A stretch of DNA of 64,000 bases from Leptolyngbya sp. NIES-3755. GTDB taxonomy: Bacteria; Cyanobacteriota; Cyanobacteriia; Leptolyngbyales; Leptolyngbyaceae. Under the pieces are notes generated by a model. That model had not been told where the DNA came from and ran no database searches. It was given only the letters and a program-made list of their open reading frames with translations. The stretch lies in NCBI GenBank assembly GCA_001548435.1, contig AP017308.1, positions 4,101,030 to 4,165,029 on the forward strand. Direction: 5' to 3'. Positions 2,698 to 16,650 of this stretch are shown piece by piece. The translations under genes were made by a program, and so were the position numbers. Each line of letters starts with the position of its first letter. The first letter of the stretch is position 1.

Positions 2698-3063
2698 CTA
2701 CTGCCAATGTAAGATGGCACGAATTTGAGCCGCCAACAATTTGGCTTTGAACGGTTTTACGATCCAGCCTTTAATGCCTTGTTTCAAAAGTTGCTCAGAT
2801 GGACTCGCTTTTGCAGTTAATAAGATGGTGGGAATGTTGCAAGTCTGTTCATTCACCTGCAACTGTTCAAAGGTCATTGCACCATCCATATTTGGCATCA
2901 TCATATCGAGCAAAATCGCGTCGGGCTGATGAAGGTAAGCGATCGTTAATCCTTCTTCTCCAGATGCTGCGGTCAGAACATTCCAGTCTGTTAGCGCAAT
3001 TAAACTAAATCGGATAATATCGCGGATACCCGCATCATCATCAATCACTAAAATCTGTTTCAT
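2698..3063 (-). CDS. Single-domain response regulator (cassette A)
   Basis: A stand-alone receiver of 121 residues. It has the acidic pocket VIDDD (8-10), the phospho-acceptor Asp53 in LLDMMMPN, the conserved Thr in LLTAKA and Lys in VKPF. There is no output domain, so it acts as a phosphate shuttle or by protein contact. ATG at 3063 is the normal receiver start, and the upstream extension to 3099 lies inside the kinase gene. The gene overlaps the 3' end of the kinase gene by 23 nt, which points to co-translation. Its closest relatives in the window are at 18155 and 16734. Confidence 0.93.
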   Translation of the reverse strand: MKQILVIDDDAGIRDIIRFSLIALTDWNVLTAASGEEGLTIAYLHQPDAILLDMMMPNMDGAMTFEQLQVNEQTCNIPTILLTAKASPSEQLLKQGIKGWIVKPFKAKLLAAQIRAILHWQ

Positions 3064-5779
3064 CGTTTTGTAAAAAATGAATTGGTATTTGGAAAACAAA
3101 ACAGCTACCGATCCCGATCGTACTTTCTGCCCAAATTTTCCCTCTGTGCTGCTCGATAATACTGCGACAAATCGCCAGTCCTAACCCCGTTCCACCTTTT
3201 TGTCGAGCATCAGAGGCATCGACTTGATGAAATCGATCGAAGATTTTTTCCAGTTGATCCGGTGCAATTCCTCGACCTCGATCGCAGACTCGCACAATGA
3301 CCGATTGATCTTCGACTTGAGCCGTTAAACTCACTCGTTCACCCATGGGTGAGAATTTGATTGCATTGCTCAGTAGATTGGTAAGAACTTGAAGTAAGCG
3401 ATCGCGATCAGCATGAAGTTCGATCGACAAAGGGAACACCGATAGTAGAACCTCCGCTTGATTTGCCATCACTTGAATTTGTGCGATCGCATCATTCATC
3501 AAGCTTGCTAAATCACAAGGCTGAATTGAAAGACTAATCTTGCCTGATGCCAGACGTTCGAGATCGAGGATGTCATTAACTAATCGAACTAAGCGATCGG
3601 CTCCTTCAGCGGCAATCTCGATCGTTCTTTGTCCCGATTCAGAGGCAGGGTCGATCAAACCTTCTGAAAGCAAATCTAGTGCTCCATGAATCGAAGTTAA
3701 GGGCGTTCTGAGTTCGTGACTGACGACCGATACGAATTCATCTTTTAGCCTTGCAATCTCAGCTCGTTCCGTAATGTCAGTACAGATTCCACACACCATT
3801 TGCGGCGTACCTTGCTCATCAAAAATCGGGAATCGAACTGAGAGCGCAGTATGAATCGCACCATCAGCATAAAGAACTTTCTCCTCGGATTCGATCGCGT
3901 GTCCTGCTTCGAGTACCGCTTGATTTCGACCATTAAAAATCGTGGCTAATTCGGCAGGAAACACCTCATCGATCGTTTTACCAATAAAGTCTTCTTGCGA
4001 TCGATTAAAAACGCGATCGTGCTGCTGATTCACCAGTAAGATCTTGCCCTCTGTATCCACAAGATAAATGACTGCTGGATTGTTCTGAATTACAGCTTCT
4101 AACAATGCCTGACTTTCTCGCAGTGCTTTTGTGCGTTCTGCTACACGAGCCTCTAACAGCGCATACGATCGTTGAAGGTCAAGCTCGATTTGTTTGCGCT
4201 CCGTCATGTCCTGGAAAAAGATCACTAAGCCATCGGCAGACGGATAAATTCGGTTCTCAAACCATCGATCCCACGGTGGGTAATATTCTTCGAGTTGGAC
4301 GACTATCTGTTCTAGCATTGACCTCTGGTAAGCATGATAGAACTTCTGCCCCACGCCTTCCGGGAACTCTTCCCAAATCTGTTTTCCGATCAGATCTTCA
4401 GGACGACGACCCAGTATTTCTCCTGCTTTGGAATTAACGTAGGTATAGTGCCAATTCGCGTCGAGGGCAACAAATCCATCGGTGACACTCTCTAGAATAC
4501 TGGTGACTTGCTGACGAGCGGTTTGCGCTTCAAGATAAGCAAATTGTTCTCGCTGGAGTGCAAATCGAAGCTGAGTTTCTGTCGCTTTTAGCTCAGTGAT
4601 ATCCGTGATCGTTCCCACATAGCCCACAATTTCTCCGAGTGGATTTCTTTCGGCTACTGCTTGCCCATACACCCAAGTGATTTTGCCATCTGGACTCTGA
4701 AATCGATAGTTCTGTTGAAAAGGGCGATTCTCTTGCGCCGATCGATACCATTCTTCAAAGATTCGTTGTCGATCGCTTGCATACAAAGCACTCACCCAAC
4801 CTTCACCGATCGCATCTGAGATCGAGACTCCAGCGATTTCACTCCAGCGATCGTTGACATAGAGACAATTCCCGATCGCATCAGTGTGGAAAATGCCAAC
4901 CGGAGAAGCTTCGGTTAACGTTTGATAGCGCTGCTGACTTCTTTGCAGCACGATTTCCATTTGTTTGCGCTCATCAATATCCATGATTGTTCCAGTCATG
5001 CGGACAGCCTGCCCAGCTTCGTTGTAGAACGCTTTTCCTTTGCCTGCGATCCAATGAAGGCTGCCGTTTTGCCAAATGACACGATATTCGCAGTGATACG
5101 TCGTGCGATCGCGAATTGCTTTTTCGACTGCTTGATTTAGAGTAGAGCGATCGTCGGGATGTAAGCGATCGTCAAAAGTTTCGTAACGTCCATCAAAGGT
5201 ATTCGGAGCCAGTCCAAAAAGCTGTTCGTGTCCGCTCGACCAAGTAATTTGTCCGGTGATCATGTCCCAGTCCCAGATGCCCATATTCGAGGCTTCCAGC
5301 GCTAGTAAAAGACGAGCTTCACTAATTTCACGATCGCGAATTTGTTCTCGAAGTGATGTGTTCGCTTGATCGAGTTGGTGGGTTCGTCGATCGACTTTAG
5401 AATAGAGCCGATCGCAGGTTTGGCGGAGAGTTTCAGTCATGCGATCGCCGCTCTGTTTCTTGTGTCCTTGAAAGATGACGAGCAATACGATCGTGAGAAT
5501 CTCTAAAACAACTTGTAAAAAGCTATTTGGAACAACATCAACATCAAATGGAAAAAAGAATACATAGAGTAAATATGAAATTCCAATTGCAGCACTGATG
5601 AGTCCCGCTTTAATTCCATTCAAGCTAGAACTTAGAGCAATGACGACAACAATGAATAGAAAAGGAATTGCTGTGAAACTTCCGAAACAGCGCAATCCTT
5701 CAATCAATAGAATCAATCCAGCGATCGCAATTCCACCAATCCAGGGAGAAAGCGATCGATTACAGGATAGAGTCAACAT
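3041..5779 (-). CDS. Multi-PAS sensor histidine kinase (cassette A)
   Basis: About 912 residues. The first 110 hold several hydrophobic segments resembling the KdpD-type DUF4118 membrane module. Four PAS/PAC units follow: GIWDWD, VGIFHTD, ALDANWHYTYVNS and NNPAVIYLVD mark their starts. Then come HisKA with SHELRTPLTS (His near residue 687) and an ATPase domain with NLLSNAIKFSP, DRGRGIAP and GGTGLGLA. No receiver is attached. I chose ATG at 5779 because it avoids overlapping the upstream gene; GTG at 5824 would overlap by 23 nt. It lies between a DNA-binding HPt regulator and a single receiver in one operon, so phosphate may pass between all three. Confidence 0.95.
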   Translation of the reverse strand: MLTLSCNRSLSPWIGGIAIAGLILLIEGLRCFGSFTAIPFLFIVVVIALSSSLNGIKAGLISAAIGISYLLYVFFFPFDVDVVPNSFLQVVLEILTIVLLVIFQGHKKQSGDRMTETLRQTCDRLYSKVDRRTHQLDQANTSLREQIRDREISEARLLLALEASNMGIWDWDMITGQITWSSGHEQLFGLAPNTFDGRYETFDDRLHPDDRSTLNQAVEKAIRDRTTYHCEYRVIWQNGSLHWIAGKGKAFYNEAGQAVRMTGTIMDIDERKQMEIVLQRSQQRYQTLTEASPVGIFHTDAIGNCLYVNDRWSEIAGVSISDAIGEGWVSALYASDRQRIFEEWYRSAQENRPFQQNYRFQSPDGKITWVYGQAVAERNPLGEIVGYVGTITDITELKATETQLRFALQREQFAYLEAQTARQQVTSILESVTDGFVALDANWHYTYVNSKAGEILGRRPEDLIGKQIWEEFPEGVGQKFYHAYQRSMLEQIVVQLEEYYPPWDRWFENRIYPSADGLVIFFQDMTERKQIELDLQRSYALLEARVAERTKALRESQALLEAVIQNNPAVIYLVDTEGKILLVNQQHDRVFNRSQEDFIGKTIDEVFPAELATIFNGRNQAVLEAGHAIESEEKVLYADGAIHTALSVRFPIFDEQGTPQMVCGICTDITERAEIARLKDEFVSVVSHELRTPLTSIHGALDLLSEGLIDPASESGQRTIEIAAEGADRLVRLVNDILDLERLASGKISLSIQPCDLASLMNDAIAQIQVMANQAEVLLSVFPLSIELHADRDRLLQVLTNLLSNAIKFSPMGERVSLTAQVEDQSVIVRVCDRGRGIAPDQLEKIFDRFHQVDASDARQKGGTGLGLAICRSIIEQHRGKIWAESTIGIGSCFVFQIPIHFLQNDETDFSD

Positions 5780-5801
5780 GGGCGAACCTAGAATAAAGAA
5801 C

Positions 5802-7631
5802 CTAGCGACCCGCTTGAGCGACACACTGCCGTAAAAGCTGAACTCGCTCTAACCGATTCAATACCCGCGCCACCAGTTCTGATTCCACGATCGGCTTACG
5901 GACATAATCATCTGCTCCAGCACTAAACACTTGAGCGATCGTTTGATCATCCGAATGCGCCGATAAAAATAGAATCGGGAGCGCGTCCCACCGTCGATCG
6001 TTGCGGATGACTTGACAAAGTTCGATGCCATTAACATTCGGCATTTCGATATTGAGGATCAGTAAGTCAGGATTGACCTGTTCTAACAAATGCCAAACTT
6101 GTTCGGATTGATCAACTAGAGTGAGATTAAAACCCCAAGGCTGTAGGATCGTGCGGAGGAAGTCCAGCACCTGAGGATCATCATCGACAATCATCAACGT
6201 GGCTTGTATTTGGTTTAATTGTTGCAAAACATGGCACACATTCACCATCACCTGACTGGATGAAATCGGCTTTTGTAAAAAACTCCGTCCCCCCAATCGT
6301 GCCACTCGAATCCGATCGCTAAAAGCATCACTCGCGGTAAAAACAATCACCGGAATTTCAGGCTGATGCTCAGAAAGTTCCGTCAATAAGCTAAATCCAT
6401 CCTCGTCTGGGAAGCTCAGATCCAGCAGAATTACATCGGGCGATCGCGTTCTCAAAATCTCTCGCGCTTCTGCCACACTCGTCGCGCCTTCAGCCTGAAT
6501 GGTCCAAGGAGCACAACCAAATCTTTCGCCTGCTGTCGTTAACTGCTCAATGAGTGCAGCATCATCATCGACAATCAGCAACCGAGCCACTAGGTTTTCA
6601 CCAGTGTGAACTTCTGGTTGAGGTAAAGGCTCGATCGTTGCTTCTAACAAAGTCGTTTTTAGCGCAGTCACTTCTTGGCGCAACATTGGAATTTTTGTAC
6701 GATCGCCCTCTGTACAAATTGCTTTCAACTGCTGCTCAATTTGGCTCGATAAAGCTGATCCCGTGTCAATTCCAAAACTCCCAAGCGATCCAATCAGCGT
6801 ATGAACTTCTCGAAAGGCTTGCTGTTCGAGGTCAGGACTGAGTGTTTTTGACTCGATCGCAGTCACCGCTTGTTCGAGAATAGCAACACGATCGAGATAT
6901 TTTTGAGCATATTGTTGCCAGGTTTGAGAAAATTCAGGCTCGATCGACGTTTTTGGCGTTTCCAAAACTTGACTCTTCAAACGATAGCCAAATCCGTAAA
7001 CGGTCTCAATTAATTCATCAATTCCTACTTTTCTAAGTTTTTGCCGCACACTCTTAATCTGTGCTCGGACTGCATTTTCTGTCGGAATTTCATCGATCGA
7101 CCAAAGATGCTCTATCAGGGCTTGATGACTAAAGATCCGCTGCTGATTTCGGACAAAAAGCTCCAGCAAACCGTATTCTTTGCGACTCAGAGACAGCGGA
7201 AGTTCATCGTAAGTAAACTCACACGCATTCGGATCAAGCACTAACTTGCCCCAGGTCAAAATCGGCATCGGTAATCGACCCCGACGGAGCAGGACTTTGA
7301 TTCGGACTAGCAACTCTTCGATCTCGATCGGCTTGACTAAATAATCATCCGCACCCGCATTCAATCCCTGGAGCTTGCTCGTTCCATCCGCTGTGAGAAT
7401 CAGAACCGGGATCGCATTTTTTGAACTCTTACGAAGTCGCTGACAGAATTGAACTCCATCCAATTTCGGCAACCGCAAATCGAGCAAAATCAAATCATAC
7501 TCGGAAGCCTGTACAAAGTCCCAAGCCACTTCGCCGTCTTCAGCGAGGTCAACACAGTAGTTCTGTGCTGTGAGGAGTTCTCGCAAATTTTCAGCAAAGA
7601 TCTCGTTATCTTCTACAATCAGAATCTTCAC
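5802..7631 (-). CDS. REC-wHTH-HPt-REC-REC regulator (cassette A)
   Basis: A 609-residue regulator. REC1 covers about 1-115, with Asp51 in LLDLRLPKLDG. An OmpR/PhoB winged helix follows at about 125-220 (LSRKEYGLLELF, TVYGFGYRLK). Next are an HPt domain near 240-330 (VHTLIGSLGSFG, with the His) and two more receivers, at about 350-470 (LLIVDDD, LLDLSFPDEDG) and 480-600 (LMIVDDDP, NIEMPNVNG). HPt domains normally relay phosphate between receivers. Fusing one to a DNA-binding regulator with three receivers suggests an intramolecular relay, which is inference. It is the first gene of the cassette, divergent from the ABC ATPase gene. Confidence 0.93.
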   Translation of the reverse strand: MKILIVEDNEIFAENLRELLTAQNYCVDLAEDGEVAWDFVQASEYDLILLDLRLPKLDGVQFCQRLRKSSKNAIPVLILTADGTSKLQGLNAGADDYLVKPIEIEELLVRIKVLLRRGRLPMPILTWGKLVLDPNACEFTYDELPLSLSRKEYGLLELFVRNQQRIFSHQALIEHLWSIDEIPTENAVRAQIKSVRQKLRKVGIDELIETVYGFGYRLKSQVLETPKTSIEPEFSQTWQQYAQKYLDRVAILEQAVTAIESKTLSPDLEQQAFREVHTLIGSLGSFGIDTGSALSSQIEQQLKAICTEGDRTKIPMLRQEVTALKTTLLEATIEPLPQPEVHTGENLVARLLIVDDDAALIEQLTTAGERFGCAPWTIQAEGATSVAEAREILRTRSPDVILLDLSFPDEDGFSLLTELSEHQPEIPVIVFTASDAFSDRIRVARLGGRSFLQKPISSSQVMVNVCHVLQQLNQIQATLMIVDDDPQVLDFLRTILQPWGFNLTLVDQSEQVWHLLEQVNPDLLILNIEMPNVNGIELCQVIRNDRRWDALPILFLSAHSDDQTIAQVFSAGADDYVRKPIVESELVARVLNRLERVQLLRQCVAQAGR

Positions 7632-7717: not shown

Positions 7718-8455
7718 ATGCTAATTCGACTGAACCAAGTCAGCTTTACGACAGGTAGAATCACCAAAAAAGGGACACCCATTACAGGCTATGAAGTTCT
7801 GCGGAATCTTTCGTTTGAGGTGAAAAAAGGCGATCGAATTGCGATCGTAGGTGCTTCCGGTTCTGGAAAAACAACTTTGCTCAAACTCTTAAATCGATTG
7901 CTCGAACCCAGTGCAGGAACAATTCAGTTTGGAGGCAAACCCTATTCAGAGATTCCGGTTCTAGAACTGAGACAGCAAATTCTCTTTGTCGCTCAAGAGC
8001 CAAAACTGTTCGGAATGACGGTTAGAGAAGCTTTGAGCTATCCGCTGAAACTAAGAAAGTGGAAAGATAGTGAACAGCGAATGAATGACATTATAGAACG
8101 AATGAACATTCCGCGAGAATGGCTCGATCGATCTGAGCTAGAGCTTTCCACTGGAGAGCGACAATGGATTGCGATCGCACGTTCGTTAATCTGTCAGCCT
8201 GCGGTGTTGTTGCTTGATGAACCGATCGCGAATTTAGATGCGAATCGAAGCGAAATATTACTGCGAATTCTGGCTCAGATTGATTCGACTGTTTTAGTTG
8301 CTACACATCAGTTTGAATGGGTAGAACAGTTTGCAGAACGAGTTTTACAGTTACAGCAAGGGCAACTGATTCAGAATGAAATGTGCGTAGATTGGAACAT
8401 TTTGAAGCAATCGATCATACAAATCGAACAAGAAGAAGCTGAGGAATGGGATTAA
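7718..8455 (+). CDS. ABC transporter ATP-binding protein
   Basis: A complete 245-residue ABC ATPase with Walker A GASGSGKTT, Q-loop FVAQEP, signature LSTGERQ, Walker B VLLLDEP and an H-loop in VATHQF. Its size and single-ATPase layout resemble the FetA/YbbL group that works with a FetB-type permease. No permease gene lies next to it: upstream is the divergent regulator and downstream is the broken kinase. The partner must be encoded elsewhere or the gene is an orphan. The substrate is unknown. Confidence 0.92.
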   Translation: MLIRLNQVSFTTGRITKKGTPITGYEVLRNLSFEVKKGDRIAIVGASGSGKTTLLKLLNRLLEPSAGTIQFGGKPYSEIPVLELRQQILFVAQEPKLFGMTVREALSYPLKLRKWKDSEQRMNDIIERMNIPREWLDRSELELSTGERQWIAIARSLICQPAVLLLDEPIANLDANRSEILLRILAQIDSTVLVATHQFEWVEQFAERVLQLQQGQLIQNEMCVDWNILKQSIIQIEQEEAEEWD

Positions 8456-8525
8456 TACATACAAAGAATAAAACGTAGTAGAACTATCTGAATACGAAAG
8501 AAGTTTATGGGAATGCTGGATGGGA

Positions 8526-8555
8526 ATCTATTGATCATCAATCTATTAATCATCA
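8526..8555 (+). repeat. 15-bp imperfect tandem repeat
   Basis: ATCTATTGATCATCA (8526-8540) is followed directly by ATCTATTAATCATCA (8541-8555), differing at one base. It lies about 35 nt upstream of the broken kinase's ATG, where a promoter or ribosome-binding region would be expected. Confidence 0.85.
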
Positions 8556-8588
8556 AAGACTGTGCTGCGCTCGTCCCATTTACTTGAT

Positions 8589-10768
8589 ATGAAACACCCT
8601 TCCACAACACCACTTCAGCAAAAACTGTTGCTCACTTTTTTGCCGATTGTTCTACTACCTTTAGCGATCGCTGGTGTTTGGAGCGGAACTGTCGCACACC
8701 AGCGCATGATGCAACAGGCAGAATTGCGGCTGGAAAATCAGTCTAAGTTAAAAATCAGTCTAAGTTAACTGCGGCACTCACGCATAAAGAGATTGAACGA
8801 AAAACATCTTTACTTAGAGCGATCGCGATTGAGCCAACTATTCTGGCAGCCGTGGAAAAAGGGAACAAGCAATCGGCAAACTTATCTAATTTAACGATCG
8901 CAGAATTAGAAACAAAATTTGCTCAAGCGAAACGGTTAGAAATCAATGAACCGCTAGAAGAATACTTGCAAAACCTAACTGCGATCGGCAACTTTGCAGA
9001 GCTATTTTTCACGAATCAACAAGGCTTGAATCTTGCAGTAACTCAAGAAACCAGCGACTTTGTGCAGCGCGATGAACAATGGTGGCAAAAAGGAAAACAA
9101 CATCAACACTGGATTGGTGTTCCACAATTTGACGATTCGACTCAGAAAACTACGATCGACATGGTTCAAGCGATCGTTGATCCGAACACAAGAGAATTTT
9201 TGGGTGTGATGAAAGCAGGATACGATGTAGATGCGCTAGAACACCTCAAAGGCGAACTATCCAATTTAGAATTGCTTGATACTGAACGAGTGCAAATTCT
9301 CGCTTTAGGTAAGAACTTGATCCCAATCAAAACGATTACGCCTTCGGGGATGAGGCACGATCGCGAAGTTCTAGGCAAAGAACCAGGACTCAAGCAAGCA
9401 GCAAACCGACTCAAAGCAAAAAAACAACCTTCAAGCGAAGAAGAATTTGATATTGCAACGGAACTACTGATCATTGACGATCGCTGGTATGCCGTGACGA
9501 TGATTCCAGATACCAGTTGGGTCGCGATTTCGTCGATCGAGATCAATCAAGCTCGTGCAGGCAGCTATCAACTCATGTCGATCTTTGCATTGGTGTTTTT
9601 AGGATTGGGTACAGTTGCGGCGATCGTCATTGTGCGGGTGTCTCAACGCTTTTCAAAACCCCTCAACGAACTCTCCCAAGCCACCCAACAGATCACGAAG
9701 CAAGCAAATTTTGCTGTTCAGATTCCAGTGAGAACGACAGATCGAGAGATTTGTAGTCTGACCGATTCGTTCAATCAGTTGATCAAACGAGTACAGCAAT
9801 TGTTGAATGAACAAGCTGAAGCCAAGCGGCAGTTAGAAGACTACAACCAAACTTTAGAAGATAAGGTGGATGCTAGAACTCAAGAATTGAAAGAAGCATT
9901 AAATGAACTGAAGCGAACACAGGCAAAAATTGTTCAAAGCGAAAAGATGTCGAGTCTAGGACAATTAGTGGCGGGCATTGCTCACGAAATCAACAATCCA
10001 GTCAATTTCATCCACGGCAATCTGGGACATGTGCAAGAGAATATTCAAGATTTGCTGGACTTGATCGAACTCTATCAAAGCGAATATCAGGCTACGATTG
10101 CGATCGCCAATAAAATCGAAGAGATTGACTTAGCTTTTCTCCAAGACGATGTGCCAAAATTGCTCAATTCGATGACGGTTGGAACCGAGAGAATTCGCGA
10201 AATCGTCAAATCATTGCGGATCTTCTCACGATTAGATGAAGCCGAAGTTAAAGCGATCGACATTCACGAAGGCATTGATAGTACTTTGATGATTTTGCAG
10301 AACCGATTGAAAGCAAAGCCCGATCGGGCTGAAATTCAAGTCATTAAGGACTATGCTGAGTTACCGATGGTTCAGTGCTATGCAGGACAACTCAATCAGG
10401 TGTTCATGAATATCTTAGTGAATGCGATCGATGCTTTAGAGGAAGGATTGGTAAAAGATCCGACACATCAACCGCACATCAAGATTGGGACGAAGCAAAT
10501 GGGGGAATCGATTGAGATCGCGATCTCAGACAATGGTACAGGCATTCCTGAATCGGTTCAGTCGCGAATTTTCGATCCGTTTTTCACTACAAAAGCAGTC
10601 GGTAAAGGCACAGGAATGGGAATGTCGATTAGCTATCAAATCATCACCGAGAAACATGGCGGCGAATTGGAATGTGTTTCGACTCCCGGACAAGGAACGC
10701 TGTTCTTGATTCGGATACCGATCGAGCAGAATATTTCTGAACCGGGACAAACCCAAAAAATCGATTGA
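8589..10768 (+). pseudogene. Histidine kinase gene interrupted by a 17-bp tandem duplication
   Basis: The 5' part from ATG 8589 encodes a membrane anchor (LLLTFLPIVLLPLAIAGVW) and stops at 8768. The remainder is open in another frame to 10768. Removing one copy of the 17-bp tandem duplication (8734-8750 and 8751-8767) restores one continuous frame of about 720 residues. The restored protein would have TM1, an extracytoplasmic dCache-like sensor, TM2 (SIFALVFLGLGTVAAIVIV), HAMP, a coiled coil, a HisKA with GIAHEINNP and an ATPase with DNGTGIPES and GKGTGMGMS. A GTG at 8852 could restart translation but has no clear ribosome site. The downstream frame shows no decay, so the lesion is recent, reversible or a sequencing artefact. 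Confidence 0.85.
8734..8767 (+). repeat. Perfect 17-bp tandem duplication inside the kinase gene
   Basis: AAAATCAGTCTAAGTTA occurs twice back to back (8734-8750, 8751-8767). Seventeen is not a multiple of three, so the second copy shifts the frame and creates the stop at 8766-8768. Deleting either copy gives the reading NQSKLTAALTHKE and joins the two halves exactly. Confidence 0.95.
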
Positions 10769-10824: not shown

Positions 10825-12171
<1,347 letters not shown>

Positions 12172-15963: not shown

Positions 15964-16650
15964 TTAACTTCGATTCGTTGCGCTACCGGGATTGCCGTCT
16001 AACACTTTGATGTAGGAACCCGAAACCCAGCCTTCAACGGGTCCCATAACGATGTAATACCAGCTTCCTTGTTGTTGAATAATCTTGGCTTGAGTTCCTT
16101 TTGGAATGGTTCCGCGCACTTGAGAAGTCGTATTCGGAGTCGATCGCACATTCAGACCATCGACAATCACTTCTGCCGTTTTCGCATCAGTGATCGGTTT
16201 CGGACTAGAAGCGGCGTTGCCCGGATTGCCGTCTAACACTTTGATGTAGGAACTCGAAACCCAGCCTTCAACTCGTCCCATAACGATGTAATACCAGTTT
16301 CCTTGTTGTTGAATAATCTTGGCTTGGGTTCCTTTTGGAATGGTTCCGCGCACTTGAGAAGTCGTATTCGGAGCCGATCGCACATTTAGACCATCGACAA
16401 TCACCTCTGCCGTTTTCGCCTCTGTCACAGGAGTCGGTTGGGATGAAGTGGGAGGCTTTGCAGGTTCGGGGGAGGGGATTGCAGGCGGAGTCTGGGGATC
16501 AGGATTGACCACTTGAGGCGGAGGACTCACGACAGGAGGCTGAACTGCGGGCGATACAGGTGTAGTAGTTTGATTGGCAGTGCCATTAGAACAAGCGCTG
16601 ACAATCAGACTCATTACAAACAAAAGACTGAGTGACCCTTTTGTGTTCAT
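15964..16650 (-). CDS. SH3-domain lipoprotein with two near-identical SH3 repeats
   Basis: The N-terminus MNTKGSLSLLFVMSLIVSAC is a lipoprotein signal. A proline-rich linker (residues 25-80) leads to two tandem SH3b domains, each starting TAEVIVDGLNVRS and ending with SYIKVLDGNPG. They differ at only a few residues. The domains probably bind peptidoglycan while the lipid anchors the protein. It is the first of three adjacent minus-strand envelope genes. The near-identity of the two domains indicates recent duplication within the gene. Confidence 0.87.
   Translation of the reverse strand: MNTKGSLSLLFVMSLIVSACSNGTANQTTTPVSPAVQPPVVSPPPQVVNPDPQTPPAIPSPEPAKPPTSSQPTPVTEAKTAEVIVDGLNVRSAPNTTSQVRGTIPKGTQAKIIQQQGNWYYIVMGRVEGWVSSSYIKVLDGNPGNAASSPKPITDAKTAEVIVDGLNVRSTPNTTSQVRGTIPKGTQAKIIQQQGSWYYIVMGPVEGWVSGSYIKVLDGNPGSATNRS
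15985..16422 (-). repeat. Direct duplication encoding two SH3b domains
   Basis: About 200 bp starting near 15985 is repeated about 234 bp later (78 codons, in frame) from near 16219, with only scattered differences. The unit covers one SH3b domain; the remaining offset is a short linker. Confidence 0.85.

Follow-up and report, generated by a model that had tools for sequence, protein, structure and literature searches.

Is a histidine kinase gene that a short tandem duplication has cut into two reading frames truly broken in the organism, and if it is, could it be repaired? The gene in question belongs to Leptolyngbya sp. NIES-3755, a strain obtained from soil; its genome, which comprises one chromosome and three plasmids, appeared in 2016 (PMC4796116). 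Here, the window is the whole 64,000-nt stretch of DNA that we analyzed, and coordinates without a locus label refer to it.

A perfect duplication that shifts the reading frame

The 17-bp unit AAAATCAGTCTAAGTTA is present in two identical copies, head to tail, as a first-pass annotation of this DNA had reported (Table 1), and one further matching base extends the repeat to 8768. Both occurrences of the unit in the 6.76-Mb genome (6,761,657 bases in four contigs) are those at the kinase site, and there are none elsewhere. In a window of this length, about 1.5e-4 perfect tandem matches of 17 or more bases would be expected at periods of 12-60, so chance is excluded for this match. A Markov-simulated sequence of 2.06 Mb had zero arrays with a period of at least 12.

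The consequence for the gene is the one that had been described: the frame shifts, and translation ends at 8768. The upstream frame terminates at TAA 8766-8768, and the downstream frame runs without an internal stop from 8747 to TGA 10766-10768. The kinase is likely to start at ATG 8589 and not at GTG 8562, because the start of the orthologue in congener G003, MTHRSTTPLQQ, matches MKHPSTTPLQQ here. Counted from that ATG, the single-copy state does have the roughly 720 residues previously claimed for it, and the 5′ product of the broken gene is a 59-residue peptide with a single membrane helix. In the downstream part, the HAMP, HisKA, and HATPase_c domains each score above their Pfam cut-offs, in agreement with the HAMP-HisKA-ATPase part of the original description of a Cache-HAMP-HisKA-ATPase kinase. 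The dCache_1 match is sub-threshold (19.8 bits vs. a cut-off of 45, E-value 6.4e-4).

Table 1. Features at and around the broken kinase gene, in window coordinates.
Feature	Position	Strand	Basis or comparison
ABC transporter ATP-binding protein, upstream neighbor	7718-8455	+	adjoins the kinase in G003 as well
Imperfect 15-bp tandem repeat, 5′ of the kinase gene	8525-8556	+	one unit in G003
Truncated 5′ kinase part, 59 aa, first membrane helix, stop TAA 8766-8768	8589-8768	+	frames, G003 alignment
First copy of the 17-bp unit	8734-8750	+	sequence
Second, identical copy of the 17-bp unit	8751-8767	+	missing in the G003 and G007 orthologues
Remaining kinase, shifted frame: weak dCache, second membrane helix, HAMP, HisKA, HATPase_c	8769-10768	+	frames, Pfam
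purA-like gene (adenylosuccinate synthetase), downstream neighbor	10831-12171	+	named from its own sequence; likewise in G003 and G007

Could the two frames still yield a kinase? A restart inside the gene was considered and rejected. The first in-frame ATG, GTG, or TTG past the stop is GTG 8852, which has no evident Shine-Dalgarno sequence, and a product started there would be without the first membrane helix. The other route is through the ribosome. Both frames are open over the overlap 8747-8765, and if some ribosomes slipped back one base at A AAA (8750-8753), they would join the two frames into a working kinase with six extra residues, in line with the undetectable relaxation of constraint described below. 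But the overlap codons are TTA AAA ATC, with five A's only and no in-frame slippery heptamer X XXY YYZ, and the relatives have no such arrangement. We find this bypass a weak proposal, and we give it hardly any credence. We infer that no functional kinase is produced from the broken gene in this strain.

The imperfect 15-bp tandem repeat just 5′ of the kinase start (2.1 copies, 94%) is a second, older duplication, less than 230 bp from the 17-bp one.

Relatives and the age of the break

We compared the locus with seven other congeners. Full-length relatives of the sensor part of the kinase are found in two of the seven, and no second copy of it was found in the whole genome, so that on this sequence comparison the sensor part is accessory. 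A broader contig scan for relatives of the kinase reported only more distant kinases, and a scan of viral sequences reported one kinase, with 42% identity.

The close orthologues are those of G003 and G007. In G007, the gene is one open frame of 747 aa, with 69% identity across the downstream part. The G003 gene has a contig end inside it, which leaves its halves on separate contigs (L010 and L110), and both pieces are open. At the duplication site both alignments have a single 17-bp unit. Since these orthologues occupy the same locus, also adjoining purA, and are single-copy and read through, the sequences indicate that one copy is the ancestral state and the second copy is derived. The first-pass annotation had proposed a comparison with sister strains; in these two congeners, the gene is open and single-copy. 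Relative to cyanobacterial membrane sensor kinases with HAMP, HisKA, and HATPase_c, for which the G007 orthologue serves as our example, the gene studied here has the same domain order and gene neighbors, but it is split by the duplication whereas the G007 gene is intact.

Two other features of the window are worth recording. On the opposite strand, adjoining the ABC ATPase, positions 3041-7631 encode a histidine kinase rich in PAS domains, along with a response regulator that carries three receiver domains and an Hpt domain; in G003, their place is occupied by a different gene. Positions 15989-16419 hold a 234-bp unit in 1.8 copies (95% identity), which is probably a domain repeated within a gene.

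How long has the kinase been broken? Compared with G003, the nearest congener, the downstream frame has a dN/dS of about 0.08 with dS > 1 (511 codons). Using G007 as the outgroup, there are 17 amino-acid changes on the branch of the kinase gene studied here vs. 28 on the G003 branch, and 50 synonymous changes vs. 59. In these 511 codons, neither dN/dS nor the branch counts give any sign of relaxed constraint: there is no own-branch excess of amino-acid changes, just as there is no downstream stop. For this reason the break looks recent relative to the G003 split, on sequence divergence that resolves no finer than that split. Two more of the original suggestions hold up here, namely that the kinase is otherwise undamaged downstream, and that the knock-out is recent, which the single-copy congeners also support. 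The annotation's other suggestion, that the mutation arose in the laboratory strain, may also apply.

Recent frameshift pseudogenes have one disabling indel, while the rest of the gene is undecayed and the relatives are intact. The kinase gene resembles such pseudogenes of sequenced bacterial strains in all three respects. It differs from the ordinary ones in the kind of indel, a perfect 17-bp tandem duplication, which makes a precise restoration possible.

Gene-breaking duplications in the genome, and the quality of the assembly

We performed a census of perfect tandem duplications with a period of at least 12 in 2.86 Mb, which is 42% of the genome. There are 32 of them, and the period is divisible by three in 25, an excess that is as expected if selection removes frame-breaking duplications from genes. 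The other seven comprise four 14-bp cases within short frames or at the margins of genes (placed by open-frame lengths alone), one 14-bp intergenic case, and two cases that break a gene. Frame-breaking perfect duplications inside genes are thus rare in this genome. One of the two is the kinase duplication. The other is a perfect 16-bp tandem duplication at L158:13597-13628 (G000:C1:2413597-2413628) that splits a PG_binding_1/Muramidase gene; five congeners have this peptidoglycan-binding/N-acetylmuramidase gene as a single open frame. The end homology is 1 nt for the 17-bp duplication, and zero for the 16-bp one.

The intergenic 14-bp duplication, L155:10859-10889, seemed to be gene-breaking at first look and was discarded, as the genes on its two sides are distinct ABC-transporter genes. 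At several loci (L240:2193-2224, L262:15634-15665, L263:10026-10061) there are related 14-bp repeats, each made of two heptamers, of the GGTGCGAGGTGTGA type. As a control, 0.92 Mb from other cyanobacteria had no clear gene-breaking case, in a sample too small to separate rates.

Can we be sure that the duplication belongs to the organism and not to its assembly? For this genome, PCR-free paired reads of 300 bases plus mate pairs were put together by Newbler, and the finishing, which began from 118 large contigs, was carried out in silico (PMC4796116). If two contigs had been joined with a short overlap left unmerged, or if reads had been mishandled, the real genome would be single-copy; an assembly error had also been named in the first-pass annotation. 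The in silico finishing gives this some weight, as does the presence of a 16-bp and a 17-bp perfect duplication, both almost without homology, that each break a gene whose counterparts in relatives are intact. On the other hand, 34 bp are easily spanned by 300-base PCR-free reads, and neither the 17-mer nor its flanking sequence recurs elsewhere in the genome, which leaves no evident cause for a contig break at this site. We take such an artifact to be unlikely, though it deserves to be kept in mind, and we infer that the duplication is a genuine mutation rather than an assembly error.

Origin of the duplication and its possible reversal

The explanation that we favor, and believe to be probably right, is that a recent, spontaneous, nearly homology-free 17-bp tandem duplication created a null and potentially revertible allele of the kinase. 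What counts against it is that the second gene-breaking duplication, of similar length and with zero end homology, would fit a systematic finishing error as well. With so little homology at the ends of either duplication, nothing points to slippage between short repeats that were already there; an event that needs no homology, for instance fill-in or template switching, would fit the birth of the duplication, as would an overlap of contigs left unmerged. The frameshift would then produce a null allele of an accessory membrane sensor-histidine-kinase gene. The two perfect copies may make the allele revertible: rare slippage between them could remove one copy and so repair the gene. Copy loss would be far easier than re-creation, and a return to two copies would have no special substrate; it is this asymmetry that suggests a revertible pseudogene, as opposed to an evolved switch.

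The first-pass annotation had suggested that the gene could switch on and off, with cells gaining and losing the second copy at an appreciable frequency. Perfect adjacent copies can indeed be lost by slippage, and there is a precedent in the pneumococcal capsule genes, where, in the account given by a citing article, spontaneous sequence duplications inside open reading frames are reversible and act as a switch (Waite et al. 2001, 2003, cited in PMC4243769). As far as that account goes, the two cases are alike in that a tandem duplication inactivates an open reading frame and precise excision is possible in principle. They differ in that reversal has been observed for the capsule genes, together with phenotype switches, whereas the kinase duplication is known from one genome alone. 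A phase-variable gene would have several copies or a repeat tract in its relatives; here there are only two copies, and a single one, with no repeat, in G003 and G007. Moreover, an end homology of 1 nt offers no substrate for regular re-duplication, so that a gene with one copy has no built-in tendency to undergo the duplication anew. The suggestion of switching does not survive these observations well; we regard it as improbable, and expect one-way reversion at most.

A broader version, in which the strain switches genes by means of reversible short duplications (the sensor kinase, perhaps the muramidase), is prompted by finding two gene-breaking 16-17-bp perfect duplications in under half of the genome. 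We consider it highly improbable. In a literature search, no relevant report of cyanobacterial kinases switched by short duplications turned up.

Significance

We see here an ordinary pseudogene-type event, and whether the duplication is real or a finishing artifact, it gives no pointer to a new mechanism. Were the duplication a finishing artifact, two genes of a published complete genome would need correction; were the switching reading true, a cyanobacterium would have phase variation based on duplications. If the duplication is real, the sequenced strain is without a sensor kinase that some of its relatives have kept, and the kinase may be regained in culture, which is relevant to those who use this strain as a reference.
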